Source of the DNA: a virus
Strand: one strand, 5' to 3'
IMG/VR virus record: IMGVR_UViG_3300047462_000736
Location: 1 to 29,826 of that record
Length of the DNA: 29,826 bases
Below the pieces are notes generated by a model. That model saw nothing but the letters and a program-made list of their open reading frames with translations. It made no database searches and was not told the origin of the DNA. Made by a program: the position numbers and the translations under genes. Shown here piece after piece: positions 1 through 22,070 of this stretch; within the stretch, counting starts at the first letter, position 1; each line of letters starts with the position of its first letter.

Positions 1-429
1 ATGGTCGGCACATCCAGCCAGACCCACGGTCGTGCGCCGGACGCGCGCAGCGTGCAGCAAAGCCGGATCGCCGCCGATGGCCTGGCCGCGGTGCATCTTG
101 ACGATCTGTCCGGCATGCGGGCCACCGCCATGTGTCTGGTCGGGCATCTGGGCCATATGATCGACGCGCTGGACGACGGCAGCCTCGGCCGACTGCTGGG
201 CGGCGGCGGGTTGATCGCCGGTTTCGCCTCGGTCTGCCGGGTCGCATGCCTGCTGATGGACCGGGAACGAAAGAATTTCGACATGACCGTCCCCAGCGCC
301 CATAAAGCCATTGCCCACAGCCCCACCGATGAGGCCGAACTTGAGCGGCGAATCACCGATGAGCTTGATCGCATCGCAGCCCGAAAACGAACGGCTGCCC
401 TCGGTGCGCCGGATGGCCCCGACTTATGA
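1..429 (+). CDS. Hypothetical protein in the terminase small-subunit position
   Basis: This 142-residue ORF opens on an ATG at the first base of the window, so its true start could lie further upstream. The C-terminal part is charged and helical (acidic/basic stretch after residue 105, TDEAELERR..DELDRIAARKR), and the middle is rich in Gly and Leu. It overlaps the start of the large terminase by about 70 bases in another frame, the arrangement usual for translationally coupled small/large terminase pairs. I see no clear helix-turn-helix or other diagnostic motif. The assignment as packaging small subunit rests on position only. Alternatively it is an unrelated small phage protein. Confidence 0.45.
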   Translation: MVGTSSQTHGRAPDARSVQQSRIAADGLAAVHLDDLSGMRATAMCLVGHLGHMIDALDDGSLGRLLGGGGLIAGFASVCRVACLLMDRERKNFDMTVPSAHKAIAHSPTDEAELERRITDELDRIAARKRTAALGAPDGPDL

Positions 430-1678
430 AGACAAGCTGCGGCTGTTTTGGAACTGGTCGAAATGGCGCGCCCGGCGCGAGCAGTTGCCGCCGGACTCTG
501 ACACGTGGCTGGTTTGGCTGCTGCTCGCCGGCCGCGGTTTCGGCAAAACCCGCACCGGCGCGCAAACGGTCGGCGCTGAGGTCGAGGCCGGCCGCGCCCG
601 GCGCATCGCCCTGGTGGCGCCCACCGCCGCCGATGTGCGCAACGTGATGGTCGAGGGCGAAAGCGGCATCCTGGCCGTCTCGCCGCCCTGGTGCCAACCG
701 ATATATGAGCCGTCCAAGCGGCGGCTGACCTGGCCGAACGGCGCCGTCGCCGAATGCTATTCCGCCGACGAGCCCGAGCGTTTGCGCGGGCCGCAGCATG
801 ATTTCGCCTGGTGTGACGAGCTGTCGTCCTGGCGCTATTCCCACGCCTGGGACATGCTGATGTTCGGTCTACGCCTGGGTGAACGCCCCCGCGTGGTGGT
901 CACCACCACGCCCAAGCCCACCCGGCTGATCCGCGATCTGGCGGCCGCGCCGACCACCGTTCTGACCAGGGGCTCGACCTTCGCCAACCAGGAAAACCTC
1001 GCTCCGTCCTTCATGACGGTCATCCTCGCCAAATACCAGGGCACTCGCCTCGGCCGGCAGGAGATCGAGGCCGAGCTGCTGGACCAGGCCGACGGCGCGC
1101 TGTGGACGCGCGCCGTCATCGAATCCGCCCGCGTCGCGCGGGATGACATGCCGCAGATGAAGCGCATTGTCGTCGCCATCGACCCCGCCGTCACCGCCGG
1201 CCGGGACTCCGACGAAACCGGCATCGTGGTCGCGGGGCTGGGCATCGACGGCATGGTCTATGTACTGGCCGACGCCTCCGGCCGCTTCACGCCGGATGAA
1301 TGGGGTCGCCGCGCCGTCAACCTTTATGCTGATCACAAGGCCGACCGCATCGTCGGCGAAACCAACAACGGCGGCGATATGGTCGCGATCATGCTGCGCA
1401 CGGTCGATCCCAACATCGCCTATAAGGGCGTGACCGCCTCGAAAGGCAAGCGAACCCGCGCCGAACCGGTCTCGGCCCTCTACGAACAAAGCCGCGTCAA
1501 GCACGCCGGCGCATTTCCGACGCTGGAGGATCAGATGTGCAACTGGTCCCCAACCTCCGGCGAGGGCTCTCCCGACCGCGTCGACGCGCTGGTCTGGGCC
1601 GTCACCGAATTGAAGCTAGAACCCGCCGACACCGGCCTGCTCGATTTCTACCGCGACCGCGCCGGGCGCATGCGATAA
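359..1678 (+). CDS. terL: Phage terminase large subunit (ATPase/nuclease)
   Basis: This is the DNA-packaging motor, which cuts concatemeric DNA and pumps it into the prohead through the portal. Numbering from the ATG at 359 (439 residues), the N-terminal ATPase shows a Walker A motif GRGFGKT at about 58-64 and a Walker B ending in D153-E154 (FAWCDE). A coupling-motif-like TTTPKP follows. The C-terminal RNase H-like nuclease shows VAIDP (D275), VGETNN (E334) and DRVDALVWA (D409), a plausible metal-binding acidic triad. The frame stays open back to an ATG at 311, but 359 has a GAGCGG ribosome-site-like stretch just upstream and gives a normal N-terminus. An ATG at 413 is a further alternative. 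The length is typical of the family. The portal gene, normally next, lies 5.5 kb away behind an insertion. Confidence 0.95.
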   Translation: MSLIASQPENERLPSVRRMAPTYEDKLRLFWNWSKWRARREQLPPDSDTWLVWLLLAGRGFGKTRTGAQTVGAEVEAGRARRIALVAPTAADVRNVMVEGESGILAVSPPWCQPIYEPSKRRLTWPNGAVAECYSADEPERLRGPQHDFAWCDELSSWRYSHAWDMLMFGLRLGERPRVVVTTTPKPTRLIRDLAAAPTTVLTRGSTFANQENLAPSFMTVILAKYQGTRLGRQEIEAELLDQADGALWTRAVIESARVARDDMPQMKRIVVAIDPAVTAGRDSDETGIVVAGLGIDGMVYVLADASGRFTPDEWGRRAVNLYADHKADRIVGETNNGGDMVAIMLRTVDPNIAYKGVTASKGKRTRAEPVSALYEQSRVKHAGAFPTLEDQMCNWSPTSGEGSPDRVDALVWAVTELKLEPADTGLLDFYRDRAGRMR

Positions 1679-1742
1679 CGCCGATATGCCGCGACCGCCG
1701 CCGCAATCCACGATAGCGACCCGCCGGTCGCCGTGGTAATCC

Positions 1743-2801
1743 ATGCGAATGCAGGAAATCAAATCCCTAACCGCAATGCGCGGAATATTCGCGCTGTGGG
1801 TTTTGGGGTATCATCTTCGCTCGTTGCACCCCGTTCCAATGCCGGACCCTTTCGGAATCCTGCTGCGCGGTTATCTGGGCGTCGATTTCTTTTTCCTTCT
1901 GAGCGGTTTTGTGCTGGCTGGCGCATATGGCGGTCGCGACTATAACCTGCGGAATGTTTGTCGCTTTGCGGTAATGCGGGTTGGACGAATGTATCCGCTT
2001 CATCTGGCGGTGATCATTGTCTGCCTGATCGCGGCGTGGCTATTAGGCAATCCGCATTCGTGGCGGCGCATCATTGTTGAAGGCTCGCTTGTGCAGAATT
2101 GGCCCGGTGTTACGGTGCCATTGCGATCGATCAACGGCCCCTCGTGGACGATCAGCGTCGAATTGCTAGCCAACTTGCTTCTTGCCGCCGCCGGTTGGTT
2201 TCCGTTGCGGGTGAATAGGTTTTTTGCGGTCGTGATTGGTCTTGTCGCATATGGTTCGATTATGGCTATCGCGGTTCAACACGATGGAGTTTTGGACCTT
2301 TCGATGGCGAATTCGGCCACGCCATTTTATCGGTGTTTCTCGGAGTTCGTCATCGGCGTTTTGTTGTTTCGGTGGCGAAACACCGGTAGTTACCTATCTG
2401 GAACGGCACTTTCGATTCTGAGCGCCATTACAATCGGCGCAATAATTTCAAATATTAGCGACAGAATTGTTGTGTCATTGCTCGCGATTTTAATTTTGGG
2501 TATAGCAGCCAATAATGGAAATCTATTGCGATTTCTTGAGTCCCGGCCGATATACTTTTTGGGAAAGATTTCGTTTTCGGTCTATCTGGTGCATCTGCCA
2601 GTTTTGTACGCCGTCAGCTTTCTGGTCATGCGCACCTCTTTGAGTGTTACACCGGTCTTGGTTCTTTATGTTGTCGGCACCGTACTGATCACGATCGGCG
2701 TTTCGAGTTTGACGTATAAGTATATCGAAGAGTGGGGACGGATAACTTCGAAGCGTTGGGCGGCGAGTATAGGAAAGTCGCGATCATCGGTCGTGGTCTA
2801 A
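1743..2801 (+). CDS. Membrane acyltransferase 3 family protein (OafA/YrhL-like)
   Basis: This is a 352-residue polytopic membrane protein of the acyltransferase-3 family, which moves acyl (usually acetyl) groups onto extracytoplasmic sugars such as O-antigen, capsule or peptidoglycan. Visible hallmarks are the N-terminal R13-x10-H24 pair in MRGIFALWVLGYH, the GVDFFFLLSGF segment near residue 50, the R..R.GRMYPLHL motif near 80-90, and NGPSWTISVELLANLL near 130. About ten hydrophobic helices follow, ending in a short basic tail. There is no fused C-terminal SGNH domain, but the next gene encodes a separate SGNH esterase. GC is lower than in the flanking terminase and portal genes, suggesting recent transfer. 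Phage-borne members of this family are known for serotype conversion, and that role here is inferred. The ATG at 1749 is an alternative start. Confidence 0.9.
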   Translation: MRMQEIKSLTAMRGIFALWVLGYHLRSLHPVPMPDPFGILLRGYLGVDFFFLLSGFVLAGAYGGRDYNLRNVCRFAVMRVGRMYPLHLAVIIVCLIAAWLLGNPHSWRRIIVEGSLVQNWPGVTVPLRSINGPSWTISVELLANLLLAAAGWFPLRVNRFFAVVIGLVAYGSIMAIAVQHDGVLDLSMANSATPFYRCFSEFVIGVLLFRWRNTGSYLSGTALSILSAITIGAIISNISDRIVVSLLAILILGIAANNGNLLRFLESRPIYFLGKISFSVYLVHLPVLYAVSFLVMRTSLSVTPVLVLYVVGTVLITIGVSSLTYKYIEEWGRITSKRWAASIGKSRSSVVV

Positions 2802-3076
2802 ACTGCTGCCAAGCGATAAAGTTGACCCTTTCGTTACATCTTTCGTTTTACGCCTTCCATCCGAACAGCCTGCAAATGGCGTTTCCGCCTCGATAAATCA
2901 GAGGCACTGACCCGGTCGCGTTCAACACGAGCGAGGCTATCAAGAGCCACCTAGCGATGGTCGGTGTGTTTATGCCAGCTCACGGCGAGCTGATATGCTG
3001 CTTCGCTTGCGATCAAAATAGCGACGTACGCCTAAGTCTTAATATACAAAATATATCAAGAGTTTGAGGGATAAAT
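2802..3076 (+). promoter_or_regulatory. AT-richer intergenic leader upstream of the esterase gene
   Basis: This 275-base gap is the longest without a gene. It contains a 6-bp inverted repeat, CAGCTC/GAGCTG (2976-2981 and 2987-2992). The last 70 bases are AT-rich, with TAATATAC-like -10 candidates around 3040-3048. The downstream gene has a good ribosome site (GAGGG at about 3065). No strong -35 box is evident. An independent promoter for the esterase gene is plausible but unproven. Confidence 0.3.
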
Positions 3077-5989
3077 ATGACGATTGTTTATACCCAGAAC
3101 TTTGAGTCCACAACTGTAGGCGCGCTCCCGAGTGGCTTCGCCAATATCATCAATACGTGGGCCGTCACAGCGACTAACCCGATATCCGGCTCCAACTCGC
3201 TCATGGCTTCGGTCAATGATGGCGCGGTTGTTCTTGAGACCGGCCTCGCGGCGATCGCAAACATGGACTTGCGATACGATGTTGGGGTCCAAGATGGTTT
3301 TGTCGGGGCGATTTTGCGCTCGGACGCAGCTGGGCAGAACCACTATATGTGGGCCATTAATGCTGGCATCGATTATACGACGCCGCGGCTCTTTAAGAAT
3401 GTCAGTGGCTCGTACATCGCAATTGGTACCTATGCCGGACAAGGATATCTCGGTACCGTAACAGCCGGAACAAAGCTCAGCATACGAGCGCGAATTGTCG
3501 GCGCTAACCTCTATTTCCGAGTCTGGCAATTTGGCACTTCGGAACCTGGCAGCTGGAATGTAACGGTATCTGATTCTTCGATCACTGCGGCGGGCTATTT
3601 CGGGTTTCGCAACCAATTGGGGTCGGCTAACACTGGCCTGACGACCATCGACAATCTTGTTCTTGATGATACGAACAGCGCGACCGCGACCGATTTCACT
3701 TTTACACCTTCGTCGCAGACAACCTCCGCAGGCACGCCGACCGGGCCTTATTCCATAAATCTTAATGGCGAATATAGCGCCAATGTCACAATTGTTTTAT
3801 CTGACGGTGGCGCGGGCGGAATATTTAACCCAACGTCTCTAAACTGGACGAATGCGAGCATCGGTCCGCAGCCGTTCACCTATACGCCGACTGGTGGCAC
3901 GACGCCGGTTATGCTGACCGCTACGGCATCCGGCGCATTTTCAACAACTCACACTGCCTACTGCGCCTTAACGGCTGCAACAGATTTCACTCTGACGCCG
4001 AGCAGTCAGATGACATTGGTGGGGGTTGCGACAGGGAATTACACCCTGACGCCTAACGGTCTTCCAGCGTCGTCAACGACCGTCACACTATCTGATAGCG
4101 GCCAGGGCGGTACATTTACGCCGTCGTCGCTGACCCTCGCAACGGCCGCAGCGCGGACGTTCACTTACACAGCCGCGTCCAGCGGAACGAAAACCTTAAC
4201 CGCTTCGGCGACCGGCGGTTTTACAGCGTCTCACACGGTCGACTGCGTCGCCTCCGTAGCGGCGACCGATTTTACTCTCATGCCGTCATCTCTCAGCACG
4301 TCTTCGCTGGTAGCGACCGGCAGTTATATTGTTACGCTTAATGGCGCGCTCGCCTCAAATGAGACAATCGCCCTCACGGACGCAAGCGGCGGCGGCATCT
4401 TCACCCCGAGCTCGCTAACATTCACGCCCGCGAATGCCGGGACGCCGCAGACGTTTTCATATACTCCCGCGAGCGGTGCGGCCGGCACTACAAAGACCCT
4501 CACCGCGACAGGAGGCGGCGCGTTTAGCGCCAATCATTCGGCGTCATGCGTCGTATCGGCGACAGCCTCCGATTTTTCGCTGACGCCATCATCACTTTCG
4601 ACGAACCCGGCGATTGCGACTAGCAATTACACGGTGACCCTTAACGGACCACTAGCTGCAAACGAGACGATTGTTCTTAGCGATTCGAGCGGTGGCGGCA
4701 CGTTTACGCCGTCATCTTTGACGTTTACCTCGGGCAACGCCGCCACTCCACAGACCTTTACATATACACCTTCCGGTGGCGCTGGCGGGACGACCAAGAC
4801 ACTGACGGCCACAGGTAGCGGCGCTTTCAGCGCTAATCACAGCGCTTCATGTGCGGTGTCTAGCGGGCCGCAGGTAGTTCCGGTTACGAATTCCTCGATC
4901 TTCTGGTCGGAGGGAAATTGGGATCACCTAACGTCGGGCACGTTTGGGGTATCACTTGATACGATGCAGGCGACGGCTGCGGGCGCGTACTTCAAGTTTA
5001 ACGTGTCGGGGACGGTCAATCTTTCACTCGATATCGACAATTCAACGACGAGCAGTTTTCCCTCCGGAAACATGCCAATCGTCAGCTACATTATCGATGG
5101 CGGCGATCGCGTTGACTCCCAGCTCCAACCCTCCCTTACGAATTTCGCCATTTCAAGCAGCCTTTCGACTGGTGCGCATACTGTCGAGGTCTATCTTCGC
5201 AGCACGAGCTTAAATCAGGGGGATCGCTGGGGCTCTATCGGCGTCAGCCCCACGAATGTTCTTCGCATTAAAGGCATTGTGATCGATTCCGCCGCGATAA
5301 TTTCTGCATCTACTTTGCGGTCAAAACGCATGGTGATCTACGGCGATAGCCGCACCGAATGCTATAATCTTGATGGTAGCTCGCAGGATTACCCGGTTAA
5401 CGGATACGGCGCACTTATGGCCCGCGCCCTTGATGCAGAATGGGCGAATGTTGGGTACGGCAGTCAAGGCGTCACCGTTGCCGGCGCGGGCAACGTCCCT
5501 GCAATGCTTACATCGTATAGTCTCTACAGCGCCGGCCGAGCGCGTTCCGCAACAGGCGTCGATTATGTCACTGTGTTGCAAGGGTTCAATGACAATTCGA
5601 ACAGCGTAGGCGGCGCGACAATCCAAACAGACGTGCAAGCTTTGCTTGGAAATCTTCGGACCCTGTACGGCGGGAATACGAGAATCTTCTGGTTTTACGA
5701 TCCTGCAGGTTTCTATGCCTCTAATTATGCTGCGGCGGTTGCGGCTTACCGGACCGCCAATCCTTCGGATACGAAGGTCTATTACATTGATATTTCGTCC
5801 GCTTCACCTGTTCCGGCGCAGTTCGATCAGTTCTCGGGAGCAACGGATTACACAGCTGATGGCGTCCATTTTAATCAGTTCGGAAGCGGCGTTTTGGGAG
5901 CCCAGTATGCGGCAAAAATCCAGACTGCGCTCGGCACCACCACCACCCCCACGACCCCATCCCATCAACTCAAAAGGGCGCGATCATGA
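3077..5989 (+). CDS. Virion- or surface-type protein: lectin-like N-terminus, four Ig-like repeats, CE2-type jelly roll, SGNH esterase
   Basis: The protein has 970 residues. Residues 1-200 look like a concanavalin/LamG-type beta sandwich (opening IVYTQNFES). Residues 205-594 are four tandem Ig-like repeats of 95-101 residues, each starting [T/S]DF[T/S][F/L].PSS. Residues 600-745 resemble the N-terminal jelly roll of carbohydrate esterase family 2. Residues 750-965 form an SGNH hydrolase with GDSR (nucleophile S758), NVGYGSQG (block II Gly), GFND (N838) and DGVHFN (D928, H931). All catalytic blocks are intact. SGNH enzymes of this layout remove acetyl groups from polysaccharides. There is no signal peptide, which fits a tail-fibre or tailspike protein incorporated into virions rather than a Sec-secreted enzyme. 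The gene follows the acyltransferase and overlaps the next gene by ATGA. GC is lower than in the core structural genes. The virion location is inferred. Confidence 0.88.
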   Translation: MTIVYTQNFESTTVGALPSGFANIINTWAVTATNPISGSNSLMASVNDGAVVLETGLAAIANMDLRYDVGVQDGFVGAILRSDAAGQNHYMWAINAGIDYTTPRLFKNVSGSYIAIGTYAGQGYLGTVTAGTKLSIRARIVGANLYFRVWQFGTSEPGSWNVTVSDSSITAAGYFGFRNQLGSANTGLTTIDNLVLDDTNSATATDFTFTPSSQTTSAGTPTGPYSINLNGEYSANVTIVLSDGGAGGIFNPTSLNWTNASIGPQPFTYTPTGGTTPVMLTATASGAFSTTHTAYCALTAATDFTLTPSSQMTLVGVATGNYTLTPNGLPASSTTVTLSDSGQGGTFTPSSLTLATAAARTFTYTAASSGTKTLTASATGGFTASHTVDCVASVAATDFTLMPSSLSTSSLVATGSYIVTLNGALASNETIALTDASGGGIFTPSSLTFTPANAGTPQTFSYTPASGAAGTTKTLTATGGGAFSANHSASCVVSATASDFSLTPSSLSTNPAIATSNYTVTLNGPLAANETIVLSDSSGGGTFTPSSLTFTSGNAATPQTFTYTPSGGAGGTTKTLTATGSGAFSANHSASCAVSSGPQVVPVTNSSIFWSEGNWDHLTSGTFGVSLDTMQATAAGAYFKFNVSGTVNLSLDIDNSTTSSFPSGNMPIVSYIIDGGDRVDSQLQPSLTNFAISSSLSTGAHTVEVYLRSTSLNQGDRWGSIGVSPTNVLRIKGIVIDSAAIISASTLRSKRMVIYGDSRTECYNLDGSSQDYPVNGYGALMARALDAEWANVGYGSQGVTVAGAGNVPAMLTSYSLYSAGRARSATGVDYVTVLQGFNDNSNSVGGATIQTDVQALLGNLRTLYGGNTRIFWFYDPAGFYASNYAAAVAAYRTANPSDTKVYYIDISSASPVPAQFDQFSGATDYTADGVHFNQFGSGVLGAQYAAKIQTALGTTTTPTTPSHQLKRARS
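3689..4858 (+). repeat. Four tandem Ig-like domain repeats inside the esterase gene
   Basis: Repeat units begin at 3689, 3980, 4265 and 4568, and the last ends near 4858. They encode [T/S]DF[T/S][F/L].PSS, then an .NG..A......LSD..GGG.F.P.SL stretch, then F.YTP and a TLTAT...GAFS..H..C ending. Units 3 and 4 are the most alike, suggesting a recent duplication. Each unit ends with a Cys in the same position, after H(T/S)A/V-like residues. Confidence 0.8.
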
Positions 5990-6564
5990 CCGCTATTCCG
6001 TTTAGTTTTGTGGTGCGCGACAGCACGGCCGGCGGGGCGCGGGTGGCCGGGTTGACGCCGGGCTTCGTGTTTTTCAAGAAGCTTTCCGACAATTCCGATG
6101 TCGCGCCGCCGGCGATCTCCGAAGTCGGGCAGGGCGCGTATAAATTCACCTACGATCCCGCCGCCGCCGGCGAGGCGATCTGGCAGGTCGATGCCGGGGC
6201 GGGTCTAAGCGCGGCCGGCGATCGCTATATCGACGGAACCGCGACGTTGGGGCTGCAGCTGCAGCCTCCCGACATTACCGCGGTCGCCGGCGACGTGCTG
6301 GATGCCGGCCTGTCCGGCCACGCCGCGGCGGGAACGGCGGGCGCCGCGCTCGGCATTTTGGTCAACACCCTGACCGAAAGCTATGCCGCCAACGGACAGC
6401 CGGGCACCCTGGCGCAGTTGCTCTACGGCATGCTGTCGGTGTTGACCAATGTCGACCAATCGGGAACGACCCTGACGGCGCGCAAGCTGGATGCGACGAC
6501 CGCCGCCATGAGTTTCACCCTCGACAACGCCGTCGCCCCCACCTCGCGCAAACGCGCGGCTTGA
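5986..6564 (+). CDS. Hypothetical phage protein with an Ig-like N-terminal module
   Basis: The protein has 192 residues. The first ~90 (FSFVVRDST, then GFVFFKKLSDN, EVGQGAYKFTYDP, GEAIWQVDAG, DRYIDGTATL) read as a small beta-sandwich like those found in phage fibre or baseplate-adaptor proteins. The second half is Ala/Gly/Leu-rich and may be helical, ending in basic residues. The start overlaps the stop of the esterase gene by four bases (ATGA), with AAGGGCG upstream, so the two are translationally coupled. A role as accessory or connector of the preceding fibre-like protein is inferred. I do not recognise a named family. Confidence 0.65.
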   Translation: MTAIPFSFVVRDSTAGGARVAGLTPGFVFFKKLSDNSDVAPPAISEVGQGAYKFTYDPAAAGEAIWQVDAGAGLSAAGDRYIDGTATLGLQLQPPDITAVAGDVLDAGLSGHAAAGTAGAALGILVNTLTESYAANGQPGTLAQLLYGMLSVLTNVDQSGTTLTARKLDATTAAMSFTLDNAVAPTSRKRAA

Positions 6565-6572
6565 TGGGCGCG

Positions 6573-6600
6573 TTGGAGACAAATTGCAGTCTGTCTCCGA
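6573..6600. repeat. REP-like hairpin between small structural genes
   Basis: A perfect 7-bp inverted repeat, GGAGACA (6575-6581) and TGTCTCC (6592-6598), encloses a 10-base loop. It can be extended by weaker pairs on the outside. It lies just after a stop codon without a T-run, so it looks more like a dispersed intergenic palindrome or mRNA-stabilising hairpin than an intrinsic terminator. Confidence 0.5.
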
Positions 6601-6733
6601 CATCGTGATGCGACCGACCGGTAAATCGCCAAGCCGCGGGAAACCCCTCTTATCTGTGTCGATCTGCGCTATCTGCGGATGAATCGTCCACGGATCACGC
6701 AGAATATCCTCTCTCGAAACTCAGGAGACGCCG

Positions 6734-7192
6734 ATGTCCGGTTGGCCGATCGCATTGGGGTTGGGCCAGGGCGGACCCGTGTCTTTTCTGCTTGACGGTT
6801 TGGCGGGTGGCGCTGTGAGCACATTGACCCTCAATCTTCGCCGCACATTGCGTCCCGCCACGATCTCCGGCTATGCCGGGCGCGATTTTCCCGCGCTGTC
6901 GGTCGCGGCCGAGGATGTCTTCGGCATCGATCTCGGCTGGGCGCTCGATGCCGGCGACAGCCTCGATCCCGGCAGCCTGGAAGTTCTGTTCTTTCCCGTC
7001 GATACGCCGGTTTCGAATTACGCCACGGCGCTCGACGGCGCGCCCGGGCTGATCGGCACGGTGGCGGCTCAGGCGATCGGGCAGCCTCCGGCCGGGCGGT
7101 ACGCGCTCGGCTTCAGTTGCGGCACGGTCAACGGCCGCCGCATCGCGATCCATTCCTTCTTCAACGCCGTGGGGTTGCCCGATGCCGCCTGA
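6734..7192 (+). CDS. Putative fibre-tail adaptor-like phage protein
   Basis: This 152-residue protein starts after a strong ribosome site (CAGGAGAC). Its C-terminal part has the pattern of small beta-sandwich adaptor proteins: DLGWALDAGDSLDPGSLEV, then PPAGRYALGFSCGT.NGR and an aromatic end. This is like phage fibre-tail adaptor proteins, in which a DS...W.V core is followed by a Gly-rich turn and T..GR. It overlaps the portal start by 11 bases. Together with the 5986 gene it may connect a fibre-like protein to the particle. Function is inferred from fold-like pattern and position only. Confidence 0.55.
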   Translation: MSGWPIALGLGQGGPVSFLLDGLAGGAVSTLTLNLRRTLRPATISGYAGRDFPALSVAAEDVFGIDLGWALDAGDSLDPGSLEVLFFPVDTPVSNYATALDGAPGLIGTVAAQAIGQPPAGRYALGFSCGTVNGRRIAIHSFFNAVGLPDAA

Positions 7193-8570
7193 AGGTAAGC
7201 TGACGCCGCTGACGGTCGCCGCCCAGCCCGGCTTTATTGGCAGGTTGACCGCCGGCCTGCGCTATGCAATCCGCGGCGTCTCGCCCGACAACTGGTTCGG
7301 CCCGCTCCAGCCGATCGAGCCCGCCGCGCCGGCCTTCATCGAACCCCGCCGGTTCGATTACATGTCCGGCCTCAACATCCAGTATCAGCCGCGCGGCGAA
7401 GAAGGCGTGTCCTTCGTGCAGATGCGGGCGCTGGCCGACAGCTACGATGTGCTGCGCCTGGTGATCGAAACCCGCAAGGATCAGGTCGAACGCCTGCGCT
7501 GGAACATCCGGCCCAAACCCGGCCAAACTTCGGCTAAGCGCCTGCCTGCCGCGACCGATCCCCGCGTCGCCGAGTTGGAGGGTTTCTTCCGCAAGCCCGA
7601 CGGCCTGCATCGCTGGGGCAGCTGGCTGCGCATGCTGCTGGAAGACTTGTTCGTCATCGACGCCGCCACGCTCTACAAGGCGCGCAGCGTCGGCGGCGCG
7701 TTGCTGGCGCTCGAGCCGGTGGACGGCGCGACGATCAAGGTGCTGATCGACGATAACGGGCGCAGTCCCGTGCCGCCCGATCCCGCCTATCAACAGGTGC
7801 TGCACGGCATCCCCAAGGCCGATTTCGCGCGCGACGAGCTGCTCTATTTGCCGCGCAACCCCCGCACCGCGAAGGTCTACGGCTTTTCGCCGGTCGAACA
7901 GATCATCACCACCGTCAACATCGCGTTGCGCCGACAGCTGGCGCAGCTGCAATATTTCACCGAAGGCAACATGCCCGAGGCGATCCTCTCCGTGCCCCAG
8001 GGCTGGACGATGGATCAGATCGTGCAGTTTCAGGAATATTGGGACACCATCATGGCCGGCAATACGGCCGAGCGCCGTCACGCCCGCTTCGTCCCGGCCG
8101 ATTTCCGCTACCAGGCGATGCGCGAGCCGCCGCTGAAGGATGATTTCGACGAATGGCTGGCGCGGGTGGTGTGCTACGCCTTCTCGACATCGCCCGCGCC
8201 CTTCACCCGCCAGATGAACCGCGCCACCGCCGACAACGCCCAGGAAATGGCGCTGGGCGAGGGCCTCGGCCCGATCATGCTGTGGATCAAATGCCTGGTC
8301 GATCAGGTGATCGAGGACGACTTTGGTTACAGCGACCTGGAATTCGAATGGATCGACGAAAAATCCGCCGACCCGATGAAACAGGCCCAGATCACCGATA
8401 TCAAACTCAAATCCGGCCTGAAAACCATCAACGAAGCCCGCGCCGAATCCGGCGAAGACCCCATCGCCGGCGGCGACACCCCGCTCATCTACACCGCCGC
8501 CGGCGCCGTCACCTTGGCGAGTGTGTTGAGCGGCTCAACCCAACAGCCGCCCTCTTCTGCATCCTCTTAA
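7182..8570 (+). CDS. Phage portal protein
   Basis: This protein forms the dodecameric portal at the capsid vertex, through which DNA is packaged and to which the tail is joined. The 462-residue length is usual for an HK97/SPP1-like portal. Recognisable parts are a variable N-terminus, the helical SYDVLRLVIETRKDQVERLRW segment at about 85-105, the wing region with LLEDLFVIDAATLYK, then YLPRNPRT.KVYGFSPVEQI, the long helix of the stem region (ALRRQLAQLQYFTEGNMPEAIL) and a C-terminal crown rich in Ser/Ala. The start lies inside the preceding gene. The next genes encode the prohead protease and capsid, as expected. Confidence 0.93.
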   Translation: MPPEGKLTPLTVAAQPGFIGRLTAGLRYAIRGVSPDNWFGPLQPIEPAAPAFIEPRRFDYMSGLNIQYQPRGEEGVSFVQMRALADSYDVLRLVIETRKDQVERLRWNIRPKPGQTSAKRLPAATDPRVAELEGFFRKPDGLHRWGSWLRMLLEDLFVIDAATLYKARSVGGALLALEPVDGATIKVLIDDNGRSPVPPDPAYQQVLHGIPKADFARDELLYLPRNPRTAKVYGFSPVEQIITTVNIALRRQLAQLQYFTEGNMPEAILSVPQGWTMDQIVQFQEYWDTIMAGNTAERRHARFVPADFRYQAMREPPLKDDFDEWLARVVCYAFSTSPAPFTRQMNRATADNAQEMALGEGLGPIMLWIKCLVDQVIEDDFGYSDLEFEWIDEKSADPMKQAQITDIKLKSGLKTINEARAESGEDPIAGGDTPLIYTAAGAVTLASVLSGSTQQPPSSASS

Positions 8571-10371: not shown

Positions 10372-11076
10372 CTAACCCGCCACCATCCCCGCCACCGTCG
10401 TCACCGCATTATCGATGCTCAACGGCAAGGTCGCCACGCTGCCGGCGAAGGCCGATAGCAGCTTTCGGTACAGCCGCTGCTCGATCGCGCAGAGTTCCCG
10501 AACGCGGGCATGATCGAGCTCGGAAAGTCCGTGCAGCCGCTCCGCCATATTGGTCAGATGTCCGCGTTCCTCGGCCAATAGGCTTTTCAGCGACACGGTG
10601 TGACCGGCGCTTTCCAGCGCCGCCTGGTATAGGCGATAGCCCCACACTGCTCGGAACTCGACGATCATAGACATGGTGAGGTACACCGCGCGCGGATGGG
10701 CGTCGGCATCGAACACGCGCGCGATTTCGGCTTCCAGCCGGTGGAAGTATCGGCGCGCCGACGACGCGGCGACCATGTCGTCGTGCTCGTAATCCATCGT
10801 GCGGCCGGCCTCGCGGTCGGCGTGGCGCTTGAAGAAGAAGGCGTGGCGGGTTTCGTCGGCCAGATGTTTCAGGGTCGGCTGGTCGATGGTCTTGCCGCGC
10901 TGGGTCGCCATGATCTTATGGCTGCCCAGATGTTCCAGCATCGACAGCGTATTCAGAAACCGCGCATGCAGCGCCTTCTCCCCGATGAACCGCGCCATGA
11001 CCGCCGATGTCTCGACCGCCATCGCCGCGTTGTTCATCTCGAATTCGGAAACCAGTAATCCGGTGTCGATCGGCAT
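10372..11076 (-). CDS. Ferritin-like diiron-type four-helix protein
   Basis: The protein has 234 residues, is almost wholly helical, and carries the ligand pattern of ferritin-like diiron proteins. E48 lies on helix 1 (TLSMLEHLGSHK), E75-x-x-H78 on helix 2 (LADETRHAFF), E140 on helix 3 (MIVEFRAVWGYR), and E170-x-x-H173 on helix 4 (LLAEERGHL). This arrangement binds two metal ions in oxygen-handling or iron-storage proteins, but the substrate cannot be told. It is the only minus-strand gene in the head module. It sits between the protease and capsid genes, has a hairpin terminator at its 3' end, and has a perfect inverted repeat 32 bases before its start. GC is like the core genes, so it may come from a host-like chromosome. 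It is not a known virion component. Confidence 0.8.
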   Translation of the reverse strand: MPIDTGLLVSEFEMNNAAMAVETSAVMARFIGEKALHARFLNTLSMLEHLGSHKIMATQRGKTIDQPTLKHLADETRHAFFFKRHADREAGRTMDYEHDDMVAASSARRYFHRLEAEIARVFDADAHPRAVYLTMSMIVEFRAVWGYRLYQAALESAGHTVSLKSLLAEERGHLTNMAERLHGLSELDHARVRELCAIEQRLYRKLLSAFAGSVATLPLSIDNAVTTVAGMVAG

Positions 11077-11320: not shown

Positions 11321-12751
11321 ATGAATGGAAATGTAACCGCCGATACCTTGGCGCAGGTCAAGGATGCCTTGTCTCACGCCACCCCCGAAGTGCTGTCCAA
11401 GGCAATCACCACCTCGACCGGTCTGGTCGCCTATGACCTGCAGCCTTCGGCCAAGAACCTCTACCCCGCCGCCACGCCCATCCGCAACGTGCTCCCGCGC
11501 GTCGGCGGCGGCACCGGCACGGCCACCAACTGGCGGCAGGTCAACGCCATCATCGGCTCCGGCTGGGATGCGATGGGCTGGGTGCCGGAAGGCCAGCGCT
11601 CCGGCAGGATGAGCTACAACACCTCGACCCGCTCAGCCTCCTTCGCCACGATCGGCGAGGAGGATTCGGTGACCTTCGAGGCGGTCTCCGCCGCCCAGGG
11701 CTTTGAGGATATCCAGGCCACCGCCACCATGCGGCTGCTGCAGAAGATGATGCTGAAGGAAGAAAACGCCTTCCTCGGCGGCAACGGCTCGCTTCAGCTC
11801 GGCACGCCGGCCACGCCTTCGCTCTCGGCCAGCGGCACCGGCGCGACTTTGCCGGCCGCGACCTATTCGGTGATCGTCGTGGCGCTGACCTATGAAGGTT
11901 ATCGTAATTCCAGCCTCACCGGCGGGGTAGCTCCCTCGGCCAATGCGACTCAAGCGGTGACCCTCGGCCAGACCTTGTTCGCTTCCGTCACGGCCGCGGT
12001 CGGCGCGGTCGGCTATGCCTGGTATGTCGGTATCGCGGGCGCGGAAAAGCTGCAGGCGATCACCACGATCAACAGCGTCGCCTTCTCCGCGCCGCTCGCC
12101 ACCGGCAGCCAGGCCGCGACCGCGATCACCGCCGACAACTCAGCCAATCCGGGTCTGGCCTATGACGGTCTGCTGACGGCGGCGCTCAAGGCCGGGTCCG
12201 GCGCTTATGTGAACTATCTCGCCACCGGCACCGCCGGAACCGGCACGCCGCTGACCGCGTCGGGCCGCGGTTCGGTCAACGAGATCGACCTGATGCTGCA
12301 GAAGATGTGGGATCAGTACGAGGTCAGCCCGACCGTCCTCTACGTCAACAGCCAGGAACAGCGCTCGATCACCAACAAGGTGCTCTCCAGCGCCTCCGGT
12401 CCGCTGCTGCGCTACACCAGCGACGGCCAGGATCCTTTCGCCATTATCGCGAACGGCGTCGTCGAGTATTACTACAACCCCTTCGCGCTCGACGGCGGCT
12501 ACAAGATCCCGGTCAAGATCCACCCCTTCGTGCCGCCGGGCACCATCGTCGGCTGGTCGGAGAACCTGCCGGCGCAGTACCAGTCCAGCAATGTCCCGAA
12601 CGTCGCCGAGGTCAAAACCCGCCGCGACTATTACCGGATGGATTGGCCGCTGAAGACTCGCGCCTACGAATTCGGCGTCTATGCCGAGGAAGTCCTGGCG
12701 ATCTACGCGCCGTTCGCGATGGGCGTTATCGCCAATATCGCCAACGGCTGA
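11321..12751 (+). CDS. Major capsid protein, HK97 fold with Ig/FN3-like insertion
   Basis: This 476-residue capsid protein is preceded by GGAG 12 bases before the ATG. The N-terminal part (TPEVLSKAITTSTGLVAYDLQ, then LYPAATPIRNVLPRVGG, then TNWRQVNAI) and the C-terminal part (NGVVEYYYNPFAL, HPFVPPGTIVGWSENLP, VAEVKTRRDYYRMDWP) match SU10-like HK97-fold capsid proteins. Residues ~165-275 form a beta-rich module (LPAATYSVIVVALTYEGYRNSSL, then a Ser/Ala/Thr-rich part) that looks like an Ig/FN3-type surface domain inserted into the shell protein. This is one of the highest-expression genes of such phages, and a hairpin follows it. Confidence 0.92.
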   Translation: MNGNVTADTLAQVKDALSHATPEVLSKAITTSTGLVAYDLQPSAKNLYPAATPIRNVLPRVGGGTGTATNWRQVNAIIGSGWDAMGWVPEGQRSGRMSYNTSTRSASFATIGEEDSVTFEAVSAAQGFEDIQATATMRLLQKMMLKEENAFLGGNGSLQLGTPATPSLSASGTGATLPAATYSVIVVALTYEGYRNSSLTGGVAPSANATQAVTLGQTLFASVTAAVGAVGYAWYVGIAGAEKLQAITTINSVAFSAPLATGSQAATAITADNSANPGLAYDGLLTAALKAGSGAYVNYLATGTAGTGTPLTASGRGSVNEIDLMLQKMWDQYEVSPTVLYVNSQEQRSITNKVLSSASGPLLRYTSDGQDPFAIIANGVVEYYYNPFALDGGYKIPVKIHPFVPPGTIVGWSENLPAQYQSSNVPNVAEVKTRRDYYRMDWPLKTRAYEFGVYAEEVLAIYAPFAMGVIANIANG

Positions 12752-12828: not shown

Positions 12829-13389
12829 ATGGCTCAGGGCGATCTGGTCACCTTGGCGGATGTCAAAGCCTATCTGGGCGGCGATCTGCAGTCCAATGAC
12901 GACGGCGTGCTGTCGCGGCTGATTTCGGCGGCCAGCGCGTTCTTCATCACCGCCTGCGCCCAACCGATCGTGCAGACAACTTATAGCGAGCTCTATGACG
13001 GCAAGGGCAATCGGCGTTTGCATTTACGGTATACGCCGGTCACTGCGGTCACCGCCCTGACGGTCGATGGCCTCGCCATCCCGCCTCTGATTGCGGAGCG
13101 CAGCCTGGGATGGGTGCTGAACGCCAATGTCATCTCGCTGTTCGGTTATGGTTTCACGCGCGGCCTCGCCAATATCGCGGTGACCTACACCGCCGGTTAC
13201 GCCGCGCCGCCCCCCGATGTCGTCGAGGCGGTGATGGAACTGGTGGGTTTGCGCTATCGCGGTAAGGATAGGCTCGGTAAAACTTCCGAAAGCATGGGCG
13301 GCATCGCCACCACCGCCTATGCGCAAAAGGACGTCAGCCCGTTCATCGCCAGCGTCATCCGGAACTACTCTCGGGCGAATCTGGCATGA
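12829..13389 (+). CDS. Head-tail connector protein (HK97 gp6-like)
   Basis: The 186-residue protein begins with the helical LVTLADVKAYLG..........LSRLISAASAFF typical of gp6-like adaptor rings that bind under the portal. A beta segment (RRLHLRYTPVTAVTALTVDG) and the conserved ....IAVTYTAGYAAPPPDVVEAVMELVGLRYR follow, where the final helix packs in the ring. It starts after a good ACGGAGG ribosome site and overlaps the next gene by ATGA. Family membership is clear from the pattern; ring stoichiometry is not visible. Confidence 0.88.
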   Translation: MAQGDLVTLADVKAYLGGDLQSNDDGVLSRLISAASAFFITACAQPIVQTTYSELYDGKGNRRLHLRYTPVTAVTALTVDGLAIPPLIAERSLGWVLNANVISLFGYGFTRGLANIAVTYTAGYAAPPPDVVEAVMELVGLRYRGKDRLGKTSESMGGIATTAYAQKDVSPFIASVIRNYSRANLA

Positions 13390-13862
13390 TCGGCGCGACC
13401 TTGAATACCCAGCCGGTCGAGGATTGGCTGAACGCCTATCCGGCCGCCGCCGAGGCGGCAATCTCACGGGCGAGTAATCTCATCGCCGCGCAAATCCTCG
13501 CCGCCGCATCGCGCAATCTGTCCGGCGGGGTCCTGAAAGCCCGGACCGGCACGCTTCGCGCCTCGCTGGCCGCGCAAGTCAGAGCGATGGGAAACAGCGT
13601 CGCCGCAACCGTAACAGCCGACACGCCCTATGCTGCTTTCCAGGAATACGGCTTCAGCGGCATTGAAAATATCGCCCCGTTCGTCCGGCGGCAGACCATG
13701 GCTTTCGGTCGGCCGGTCAAGCCGGTCGATGTTCCGGTGCGGGCGCATACCCGCCGCGTCGATTATCCGGCGCACTCCTTTCTGCGCGCCGCGCTTGCGG
13801 AAATCGCGCCCGCCATTCCGGGCATTCTCGCCGATGCTCTGGCTGAGGTCTCCAAGCCATGA
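13386..13862 (+). CDS. HK97 gp10-like head-tail joining / tail completion protein
   Basis: The 158-residue protein has an N-terminal helix rich in Ala (AAAEAAISRASNLIAAQILAA), then TGTLRASL and the signature TADTPYAAFQEYG of gp10-like proteins. The C-terminal half is rich in Pro and Arg, followed by PAHSFLRAALAEIAPAI. It overlaps its two neighbours by four bases each, which points to translational coupling. The family closes the head-tail interface or helps tail assembly. Confidence 0.85.
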   Translation: MIGATLNTQPVEDWLNAYPAAAEAAISRASNLIAAQILAAASRNLSGGVLKARTGTLRASLAAQVRAMGNSVAATVTADTPYAAFQEYGFSGIENIAPFVRRQTMAFGRPVKPVDVPVRAHTRRVDYPAHSFLRAALAEIAPAIPGILADALAEVSKP

Positions 13863-15799: not shown

Positions 15800-16397
15800 A
15801 TGGATATGGAAGGGTTTTGTTTTCGGAATTTGCGGCGCGGCGCTCGTCGCATGCACGACGATCCAGGACAAGTTTCAAGCGCAAGACAGCGCTGTCGCCG
15901 CACCTTATATCGGTCACACATACTACACCAACAACGGCAGTACGCTTTTGTTGTATTCGCAGCCTAATTACGCGTCGACTTCCGTAGTCGTGCCGGGGAA
16001 AATAACAGTCCTCGGGTTCTACGAGTCCCCGGAGCTTCAGACCTGGTTTAAGGTCGCTCTCGATAACGGTTCTCAAGGTTTCGTGGAGATTCCGATCCAG
16101 AGTTTTCGCGCCGCGCTGATCGACCATCCGCCGCCGATCGCCCCAAAAGTTATCGGCGCCTATCCGACCTTTCTCCGCCATCTCGATAGGCCGGAGTTCG
16201 AAAGGCGGCGGCAACTCCCTGGGGTCGTCGTCGGGATGTCGCAGAAAAGCGTTTTGGGAACGGCCTGGGGTGACCCCAATAAGATCGAAACACTCAAAAC
16301 AAAAAACAGCACACGCGAGAAATGGAGCTATCCCGACAACAACGTTCTCTATTTCGAGGACGGTTTTCTGGTCGGAATCAAGACCATTTTAAACTAA
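15774..16397 (+). CDS. Lipoprotein with SH3-like and SmpA/OmlA-like domains
   Basis: A signal sequence of 26 residues ends in LVAC (Cys27), a canonical lipobox. Thr at +2 does not match the inner-membrane retention signal, so outer-membrane sorting is expected. Residues ~45-105 resemble a bacterial SH3 domain (STLLLYSQPNYAS...WFKVAL..GSQGFVEI). The end, ~165-207 (GMSQKSVLGTAWGDPNKIET..REKWSYPD), has the pattern of SmpA/OmlA-type domains. A TTG at 15786 is an alternative start, but the signal is complete either way. The gene overlaps the chaperone extension and has lower GC. Phage lipoproteins in this site are often superinfection-exclusion or conversion factors; that role is inferred. Confidence 0.75.
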   Translation: MEGCLRNAEWIWKGFVFGICGAALVACTTIQDKFQAQDSAVAAPYIGHTYYTNNGSTLLLYSQPNYASTSVVVPGKITVLGFYESPELQTWFKVALDNGSQGFVEIPIQSFRAALIDHPPPIAPKVIGAYPTFLRHLDRPEFERRRQLPGVVVGMSQKSVLGTAWGDPNKIETLKTKNSTREKWSYPDNNVLYFEDGFLVGIKTILN

Positions 16398-16433
16398 GTC
16401 ATTTGCCTGTGGTTTTCTGTTTCGGAAAATCGA

Positions 16434-16463
16434 TTGAAAAAATACTATAAGCAAGATTAGAAT
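16434..16463 (+). promoter_or_regulatory. Putative sigma-70-type promoter
   Basis: TTGAAA (16434-16439) and TAGAAT (16458-16463) are separated by 18 bases in an AT-rich gap, 35 bases before the small ORF at 16498. This is the best promoter match in the accessory cassette and fits expression independent of the late operon. Confidence 0.5.
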
Positions 16464-16497
16464 AGCCTCGCATTATTATCCGAAACGGAATTTTATC

Positions 16498-16698
16498 ATG
16501 CGTGCAAATCTACAACGAGTACAAGATTCGGCGGCTGAACTTGATCAGGCCGCTGCACTTTTCCTAGAAGCCCTGAACGAGCTATCGCAATGCCATGGCA
16601 TAGGCCTCACTGGCGGTATGAACCTTTTCCTGATGGAATGTGATGATTACGAGCGCAAGTACACCGTGGACGTAGAAAGTCGCGTTGAGTTCGTGTGA
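16498..16698 (+). CDS. Hypothetical small helical protein
   Basis: The 66-residue protein has an amphipathic N-terminal helix (LQRVQDSAAELDQAAALFLEA) and a C-terminal acidic part (MECDDYERKYTVDVESRVEF). It is preceded by a plausible promoter and a weak ribosome site. It ends six bases before the convergent minus-strand gene. No family is recognised; the size suits a phage accessory or antitoxin-like protein, without direct evidence. Confidence 0.5.
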   Translation: MRANLQRVQDSAAELDQAAALFLEALNELSQCHGIGLTGGMNLFLMECDDYERKYTVDVESRVEFV

Positions 16699-16704
16699 AG
16701 CTGA

Positions 16705-17238
16705 TCAAGGCAACCTCACGCTTAGTCCCGAATTGGGGCCTGGCGGGAGGCGTAGGGCTGTGTCCATTCCCTGGTGCGTTCGTAGGTCGTCTAGCAGCGT
16801 TTTAGGACTAACTTCAGTTCCCTCTAGAGCAACGGATTCCGAACGAGGATTCATCACGGCTTTAGCCCGGTAAATGTGAAGTTGGCCGATACCTTCAGTG
16901 ATGGCGCGTAAGCATAGCCCCCGCGCGTAAAAGCGATTGAATTCTCCCTCCGCCATTGTTTCGGCCGCAGTGACGGGGACTTTTACCGTTGTCATTCCAC
17001 CAGATGGTGTCCGTCTAGATTCGTGGGTGTTAAGCCGACCGCGAGAATTTAGCTCTCGCGCCAACCATTGGTCATCATATGCGCCCGCAGCCTCGGAAAG
17101 TAATTTGACGTAATCGGATCGACCGCTCTCGCTTAGCCTGGGGCTGATATAGATTGTCGTGTCCTTGACGTCTCTGATGATTTCGTCAGTCATAAATTGA
17201 CGAGTGCGAGCATCCAAGTTTATGAGCGATAGCGGCAT
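16705..17238 (-). CDS. Conserved hypothetical protein, unknown function
   Basis: The 177-residue protein runs against the tail operon. Strong-looking conserved blocks are PLSLINLDARTRQFMTDEI, TIYISPRLSESGRSDY, VPVTAAETMAEGEFNRFY, an IYRAK motif, MNPRSES, and the terminal LPPGPNSGLSVRLP. I believe proteins with these blocks occur widely in bacteria, but no function is known to me and no catalytic motif stands out. A good ribosome site (GGGGA) lies before its ATG. It may be co-transcribed with the small minus-strand ORF upstream. GC and placement suggest an inserted accessory gene. Confidence 0.75.
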   Translation of the reverse strand: MPLSLINLDARTRQFMTDEIIRDVKDTTIYISPRLSESGRSDYVKLLSEAAGAYDDQWLARELNSRGRLNTHESRRTPSGGMTTVKVPVTAAETMAEGEFNRFYARGLCLRAITEGIGQLHIYRAKAVMNPRSESVALEGTEVSPKTLLDDLRTHQGMDTALRLPPGPNSGLSVRLP

Positions 17239-17291
17239 TGCAGTCCCCTATACTGATGATTCCGACATCTACTCCGGTTTAGGCTGGTTTG

Positions 17292-17501
17292 CTACATTTT
17301 AACTGCGTCAATTACCGCAAACTGACCGTATCGCTTTTGAGGCTCCGGCGCGATCACGCAGTTCAGCGCTACCCGGATTAATCGCCAATCTTCTAGAAAC
17401 GATCCATCACGCCTAATTCGATCGCTGGCGTCACCTGCAGTTTTGAGCACATCGCGAGGTTCAACTTCGCGGACACACGTCCGAATTGGGACAGCACTCA
17501 T
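17292..17501 (-). CDS. Hypothetical small protein upstream of the minus-strand gene
   Basis: The 69-residue ORF lies 53 bases upstream of the 177-residue minus-strand gene in the same direction. It is rich in Arg and Asp (VREVEPRDVLKTAGDASDRIRRDGS) and has no membrane helix. It is uncertain as a gene. It would be the first gene of a two-gene minus-strand unit, whose promoter would have to lie in 17502-17560. Confidence 0.35.
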   Translation of the reverse strand: MSAVPIRTCVREVEPRDVLKTAGDASDRIRRDGSFLEDWRLIRVALNCVIAPEPQKRYGQFAVIDAVKM

Positions 17502-17521
17502 TTGCTTGCTGTTGCGTCTTC

Positions 17522-21671: not shown

Positions 21672-22070
21672 GTGCCGGAACTGACGCCTTCCTATTACCC
21701 GCAGTCGATCGCGGTCTCGCCGTATGATGTGGTTTGGTGTAGGTGGCCTACCAACGTTGGAGAGGGTGGGTTTAAAGACCGACCGGCGTTAGTCCGCAGC
21801 GTTCGGCAAAAAGATGGAAATCGTGCGTTGGAAGTTGCGTATGGCACTTCCAAACTCCACAAACCCTATGTCAGCAGCTTCTATGTCGCCAATCTTACGG
21901 ACATGAATGCTGCTGGGCTTTTTCTTGCTACGCGATTTGAACTGGACCTCACGTTGCTCCTGCCGTTCGCCGAGGATTACTTCCCAAAACGGCCCGATGG
22001 CGTGGGTCCGGTCATTGGCAGATTAAGTTCTCATAGCGTCGATCTTCTAAAACAAATGTTGAAACGCTAA
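21672..22070 (+). CDS. MazF/PemK-like toxin
   Basis: The 132-residue protein starts with GTG. It carries SPYDVVWCRWP....GGFKDRPALVRSV near the start, a pattern of the MazF/PemK fold (strand, then a loop with ...RPALV). Strands VAYGTSKL and FYVANL follow, then GLFLATRFELD, LLPFAEDYF and a final VIGRLSSHSVDLLKQML, the usual C-terminal helix. Such proteins are ribosome-independent mRNA endoribonucleases. The gene follows the small putative antitoxin within three bases and is closed by a strong terminator. The family call is by pattern only. Confidence 0.55.
   Translation: MPELTPSYYPQSIAVSPYDVVWCRWPTNVGEGGFKDRPALVRSVRQKDGNRALEVAYGTSKLHKPYVSSFYVANLTDMNAAGLFLATRFELDLTLLLPFAEDYFPKRPDGVGPVIGRLSSHSVDLLKQMLKR

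Follow-up and report, generated by a model that had tools for sequence, protein, structure and literature searches.

The window analysed here is the whole of a 29,826-base virus record from IMG/VR, IMGVR_UViG_3300047462_000736. Its gene order runs from a terminase to portal, protease, capsid, tail and lysis genes. Between the terminase and the portal lie a gene for a membrane O-acyltransferase of the AT3 family and a gene for a 970-residue protein with an SGNH esterase domain, and this pair is the subject of the present work. In many outgroup relatives, whose portals are 44–57% identical, the terminase–portal gap measures only 17–230 nucleotides. An earlier note on this DNA had proposed that the pair splits two normally adjacent genes, and this holds. 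It had also described both genes as lower in guanine–cytosine (GC) content than their neighbours, and indeed the values are 50.9% for the AT3 gene and 55.5% for the esterase gene, against 64.6% for the portal gene. The features of the locus, in window coordinates, are the following.

311–1678 (+): large terminase subunit, the left neighbour (PF03237, E = 1.1e-23; PF17289, 2.8e-17)
1743–2801 (+): AT3 membrane O-acyltransferase, 352 residues (PF01757, 1.7e-23; phrog_3333 O-acetyltransferase, 1.6e-43)
1806–5936 (no strand): block exchanged relative to the relative L004 (blastn and base-by-base comparison)
3077–5989 (+): multidomain esterase of 970 residues, a probable virion fibre
3077–3694 (+): esterase N-terminal CBM66/LamG-like beta-sandwich, residues 1–206 (AlphaFold2 model; matches in the PDB and a viral library)
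3698–4873 (+): esterase immunoglobulin (Ig)-like repeats of about 90 residues each (TDFTLTPSSQTT...), visible in the sequence
4961–5209 (+): esterase CE2-like jelly-roll domain, residues 629–711 (PF17996, 1.6e-4, sub-threshold; structure match)
5339–5884 (+): SGNH esterase domain, residues 755–936 (PF13472, 2.2e-11; alignment of relatives)
5986–6564 (+): 192-residue protein overlapping the esterase stop, its C-terminal part conserved across the clade
6734–7192 (+): 152-residue protein overlapping the portal start, with a homologue fused to the esterase in L002
7182–8570 (+): portal protein, the right neighbour (PF04860, 8.7e-20)

Relatives were gathered from viral contigs and from genomes with the portal as bait, and phages with a portal at least 80% identical are treated as one clade. 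Sixteen clade phages span the terminase–portal interval: the window itself, L002, L004, L005, L006, L007, L008, L009, L012, L014, L018, L024, L027, L052, L138 and L141. In all 16, an AT3 gene adjoins a gene for an SGNH protein with a conserved N-terminal domain, and the AT3 match to PF01757 is above the cut-off in every record. A search for linked pairs in relatives had been set beforehand as a test of the proposed pairing, and it returned both genes in 16/16 clade phages and in 0/24 outgroup phages. Record-wide searches of those 24 outgroup records found AT3 in none and SGNH above the cut-off in none, the negative SGNH counts being lower bounds because the quick initial filter used in that search overlooked the window's own SGNH domain, while AT3 was recovered in 16/16. 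Among outgroups with portals 44–57% identical, neither the AT3 nor the SGNH profile was matched. The linkage of AT3 and SGNH is thus well supported as obligatory within the clade. The same interval also holds ParE, DUF4258 and further genes. At L008:8539-9205, for example, it contains a ParE toxin gene, immediately preceded by what is likely its antitoxin gene, marking the interval as a cargo hotspot.

The product of the first gene was read in the earlier note as a membrane O-acyltransferase with an R13/H24 motif, and this is borne out by the AT3 profile, which is matched over nearly its full length (positions 2–323 of 326), and by the match to phrog_3333. R-X10-H and RxxR were both recognised as motifs of OafB (PMC9833829). 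In the window protein, R13-X10-H24 lies in the first transmembrane helix and R79VGR82 after the third, and both motifs are retained in 15/15 clade AT3 proteins tested. The protein probably decorates host surface sugars. Membership of the MBOAT family was also considered and rejected, as there was no MBOAT match and the protein belongs to AT3/PF01757. The AT3 gene is inverted in L052. That of L002 (5522-6547) has no obvious ATG ahead of R-X10-H and lacks an internal stretch, and is perhaps decaying.

The second gene encodes the intact SGNH esterase and CE2-like jelly roll that had been proposed. Lipase_GDSL_2 (PF13472) is matched at residues 755–936, and CE2_N (PF17996) at 629–711, just under the Pfam cut-off. 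The SGNH motifs are intact (GDS 756–758, GFND 836–839, DGVH 928–931), and 11/11 relatives of SGNH class A retain the catalytic blocks GDS, G-x-ND and D-x-x-H. A profile built from 11 relatives (residues 600–955) finds solved CE2 acetylesterases by sequence (2wao, E = 3.6e-12). In addition, the AlphaFold2 model of the esterase, with a predicted local distance difference test (pLDDT) score of 79, matches CE2 enzymes over both domains (2wab, 4.8e-20; 2wao, 6.6e-20, template modelling score 0.74). The CE2 assignment is strengthened by this agreement between the profile and structure matches, and the C-terminal part of the protein is, on the model, a CE2-type fold with the jelly roll packed on the SGNH domain. 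In L006 (3595-5736) the esterase frame is broken near 5553 within the SGNH domain, with two SGNH profile matches in adjacent open frames, which would indicate a pseudogene or an assembly error.

Several features suggest where this protein acts. Its N-terminal 206 residues are modelled, with a pLDDT of 89, as a domain that folds like CBM66 and LamG. Among solved structures, the best matches are a Bacillus subtilis CBM66 (5e-8) and a baseplate protein of mycobacteriophage Douge (2.3e-7); most viral matches that carry a name are tail fibre, tailspike or minor tail proteins, with receptor-binding proteins as well. A signal peptide is visible in a control SGNH protein from the IMG/VR locus L159, but 13 esterase homologues show neither a signal peptide nor a hydrophobic N-terminus. 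L002 encodes the esterase as a fusion with a homologue of the 152-residue protein encoded just before the portal. The missing signal peptide, the tail-protein-like N-terminal domain and the fusion make it likely, short of proof, that the esterase is a virion fibre, as the earlier note had expected in placing it in the virion. A tblastn search returned no named phage homologue of the esterase. The 152-residue protein itself is 58–72% identical across the clade and resembles PF23148 (Gp77, a podophage fibre–tail adaptor) only weakly, in 3/19 members, with a best E value of 0.011, below the cut-off. Its identification as a known adaptor was rejected, since all Gp77 matches were sub-threshold and the PDB gave no sensible sequence relative.

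Comparison of the window with its closest relative, L004, shows that the pair is exchanged. Their DNA is 97.5% identical up to nucleotide 1805, which leaves the first 63 nucleotides of the AT3 gene within the shared flank. Identity returns, at 97%, from nucleotide 5937 onward, where the last 53 nucleotides of the esterase gene begin. Between these points (1806–5936) the only DNA homology is a stretch of 67% identity at 3977–4554, among the Ig repeats. The two AT3 proteins are only 36% identical (37% in local alignment), and the SGNH of L004 belongs to another class than that of the window. Since homology breaks inside both genes while the flanks are nearly identical, AT3 and esterase were replaced as one block. 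Other relatives record different events. L012 and L141, whose portals are 94% identical, have esterases that are 88% identical and AT3s of different classes, while L009 and L012 share AT3s at 74% identity and have esterases at 37%. Both en-bloc and single-gene exchange are therefore shown to occur in the clade. Furthermore, AT3 and SGNH genes are each present twice in L018, and L027 has a remnant of an old AT3 beside a new, inverted one. Both genes are under purifying selection in the L004–L005 pair, where omega (YN00) is 0.26 for AT3 and 0.10 for the esterase. A second block of the window without DNA homology to L004, at 16364–17521, holds a minus-strand open reading frame (16705–17238) and represents another variable site.

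The same pairing is found in unrelated phages. Arthrobacter phage Hum25 (L136, 7974–11213, genes 26–27) has an AT3–SGNH protein beside an SGNH esterase, Arthrobacter phage Kukla (L137, 5932–9003, genes 29–31) has an AT3 beside two SGNH proteins, and AT3 and SGNH are neighbours in the IMG/VR loci L154 and L159. Hum25 and Kukla both carry integrases. Of 30 unrelated phage records with a CE2-like SGNH protein, however, only one has an AT3; the linkage is therefore a trait of certain lineages rather than a universal one. Hum25 and Kukla are named and apparently cultured, which makes them good models.

The earlier note had considered what the pair could do in a prophage. In favour of this setting, a CI/S24 repressor gene stands beside the terminase in L004, and L002 also has, by sequence, a repressor gene there. 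Both arrangements fit a temperate phage, and the window phage may well be temperate.

Taken together, AT3 and esterase may make up a receptor-editing cassette in a clade of temperate, siphophage-like viruses, by which competing phages would be excluded. We give this reading about an even chance of being right. The CE2-type esterase of the virion fibre would bind and O-deacylate an acylated surface polysaccharide of the host during adsorption, and the AT3, made in the lysogen or the infected cell, would O-acylate surface polysaccharide of the host. The mark so placed would ruin the receptor for rival phages, among them nearly identical siblings with a different cassette. Selection would then keep both slots filled and favour rare alleles, with the result that the slots are swapped together or singly by recombination. 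The virion location, the surface glycan as substrate, expression in the lysogen and the exclusion of rivals are all steps that we infer. The proposal combines three precedents. In Sf6, O-acetylation of the O-antigen by an AT3 hinders the phage's own endorhamnosidase tailspike and gives superinfection immunity (PMC9558356). In G7C, the deacetylase spike gp63.1 is essential for infection (PMC10743462). In Klebsiella prophages, SGNH receptor-binding proteins are frequent, two have been shown to be esterases, and acetyltransferases are common too (PMC13123978). Receptor masking, as the earlier note conceived it, would survive in part. The mark could exclude phages with another cassette, but it could not exclude a phage whose esterase strips it. 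If a phage's virion esterase does strip the mark of its own AT3, exclusion would be confined to phages with other cassettes.

Several observations weigh against receptor editing. The 16 phages are of common ancestry, and so do not represent 16 independent events. No integrase was found in 14 clade records, all of which are fragments, and the only AT3 gene points in the late-gene direction in 13 of the 16 phages. It is for these two reasons that expression of AT3 in lysogens is a matter of inference. No portal relative above 57% identity occurs in the GTDB set, so that a host was not found: the best portals on genome contigs are at most 57% identical and come from diverse Proteobacteria (two scans), and the best in named phages are at most 47% identical. 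Lastly, AT3 similarity and SGNH similarity are uncorrelated over 17 pairs (Mantel r = 0.005, p = 0.41), nearest neighbours agree in 3/17 cases against 1.1 expected (p = 0.12), and a smaller set likewise shows no covariation.

This last result bears on a stricter version, close to the substrate-matched set proposed in the earlier note. Here AT3 and esterase would fit like lock and key, the AT3 adding exactly the acyl group that the virion's own esterase removes, such that lysogens would shut out any phage without the cognate esterase, still admit phages of their own type, and wear an allelic badge of self and non-self. Joint replacement between near-identical phages would fit this, as would the doubled AT3 and doubled SGNH of L018, the L018m and L027m pairs, which are alike in both genes (65% and 64%), and the AT3–SGNH neighbours of unrelated phages. 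Against it stand the lack of covariation, the single-gene swaps in L012/L141 and L009/L012, and the free recombination of AT3 classes 1, 2 and 3 with SGNH classes A and B, of which 1A, 1B, 2A, 2B and 3A are all found. The idea that each AT3 makes its neighbour's substrate is not supported; what the data do support is that neither slot is ever left empty. Substrates could still match, as one and the same mark may be the product of different AT3s, and SGNH esterases may have broad specificity. Overall, a strict fit appears rather unlikely. Similar doubt attaches to the cassette as a phage-versus-phage badge, a pair diversifying by exchange in the manner of a self/non-self or bacteriocin-immunity locus.

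Two further explanations depart from receptor editing altogether. Terminase–portal may simply be a hotspot for morons, in which two genes came together by chance and have no functional connection. The interval does gather ParE, DUF4258 and other genes, AT3 and SGNH evolve independently of each other, and their GC content is unlike that of the backbone. However, other cargo comes and goes while these two genes are retained in 16/16 phages, replacement alleles are again an AT3 and an SGNH, and the rarity of AT3 among unrelated phage records with CE2-type SGNH proteins (1/30) also speaks against chance. It is this retention of both genes that makes independent cargo improbable. Alternatively, the pair could be a split acetyltransferase resembling PatA/PatB or the AT3–SGNH protein OafB, in which AT3 hands the acyl group to an SGNH protein that transfers it to the sugar and is not an esterase in vivo. 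The AT3 and SGNH parts of OafB do cooperate, a protein with AT3 alone can work for a separate, soluble SGNH protein (PMC7448272), and the two functions sit on separate genes in Kukla. Such a role is nonetheless very improbable for an SGNH protein that has neither signal peptide nor membrane anchor and combines a two-domain CE2 esterase fold with a lectin-like domain, Ig repeats and, in L002, a fusion to the pre-portal protein. Moreover, the AT3 of Hum25 has its own C-terminal SGNH domain as well as a second SGNH protein beside it.

The components of the receptor-editing cassette have known counterparts. Sf6 Oac, SfII, phiV10 and OafB of BTP1 are likewise phage-borne, low-GC accessory AT3s with R-X10-H and RxxR (PMC9558356, PMC9833829). 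Unlike these serotype-converting AT3s, the one described here lies within the packaging/head block, invariably has a probable SGNH esterase fibre as its neighbour and is exchanged along with it. Surface conversion is known in the serotype-converting phages and is predicted here for lysogens. An SGNH esterase on a multidomain phage adhesin is also seen in G7C gp63.1 and in Klebsiella prophage receptor-binding proteins (PMC13123978, PMC10743462). In contrast to those adhesins, the present protein carries its CE2-type jelly roll and SGNH domain at the C-terminal end, behind a CBM66-like domain and Ig repeats, is encoded between terminase and portal rather than with the tail fibres, and has an acyltransferase partner. 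The CE2 enzymes CtCE2 (2wao), CjCE2 (2waa) and Est2A (4dev) have the same two-domain fold and catalytic motifs, but identity to them is about 18% and the phage protein has no signal peptide. In the fused AT3–SGNH transferases (OafB/OatA) the two parts are joined, whereas here they are separate open reading frames and the SGNH protein has no export signal. Hum25 and Kukla, which carry integrases, resemble the window in that an AT3 adjoins an SGNH hydrolase, in their case close to where the late genes end. They differ in being unrelated phages with another genome site and convergent orientation, and the Hum25 AT3 has its own SGNH domain. The C-terminal jelly-roll and SGNH region also aligns with phrog_7918 (E = 8.2e-13), a 'neck passage structure protein' whose N-terminal two thirds are unrelated to the window esterase and whose neck label is an annotation only.

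No description of an AT3 and an esterase fibre paired as a unit was found in the literature searched. Surface-converting acetylases and deacetylase tail fibres of phages are both known, and are usually studied separately. A pair that is always adjacent and is exchanged makes receptor editing between temperate phages directly testable. At least four unrelated phages also have the two genes side by side, which hints at a more general rule, and Hum25 and Kukla offer tractable models for it.

Elsewhere in the locus, Pfam and PHROG searches gave no family match for the 192-residue protein at 5986–6564. A promoter and terminator scan of 1500–7300 returned terminators at chance level, with promoter-like sites slightly above the shuffle mean on the minus strand only. 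The 132-residue protein at 21672–22070 recalls MazF/PemK toxins by sequence, with no Pfam match. Between protease and capsid, a minus-strand gene (10372–11076) has ferritin-like motifs (ADETRH..., EERGH) and no Pfam match, and L002 has a shorter open reading frame (13057-13614, minus strand) resembling a homologue of it. The window capsid gene (11321–12751) has an in-frame deletion of about 20 residues (the TSKSITGADGAGFSLNGGS region), a stretch that is found in L004 and, in slightly different form, in L002.

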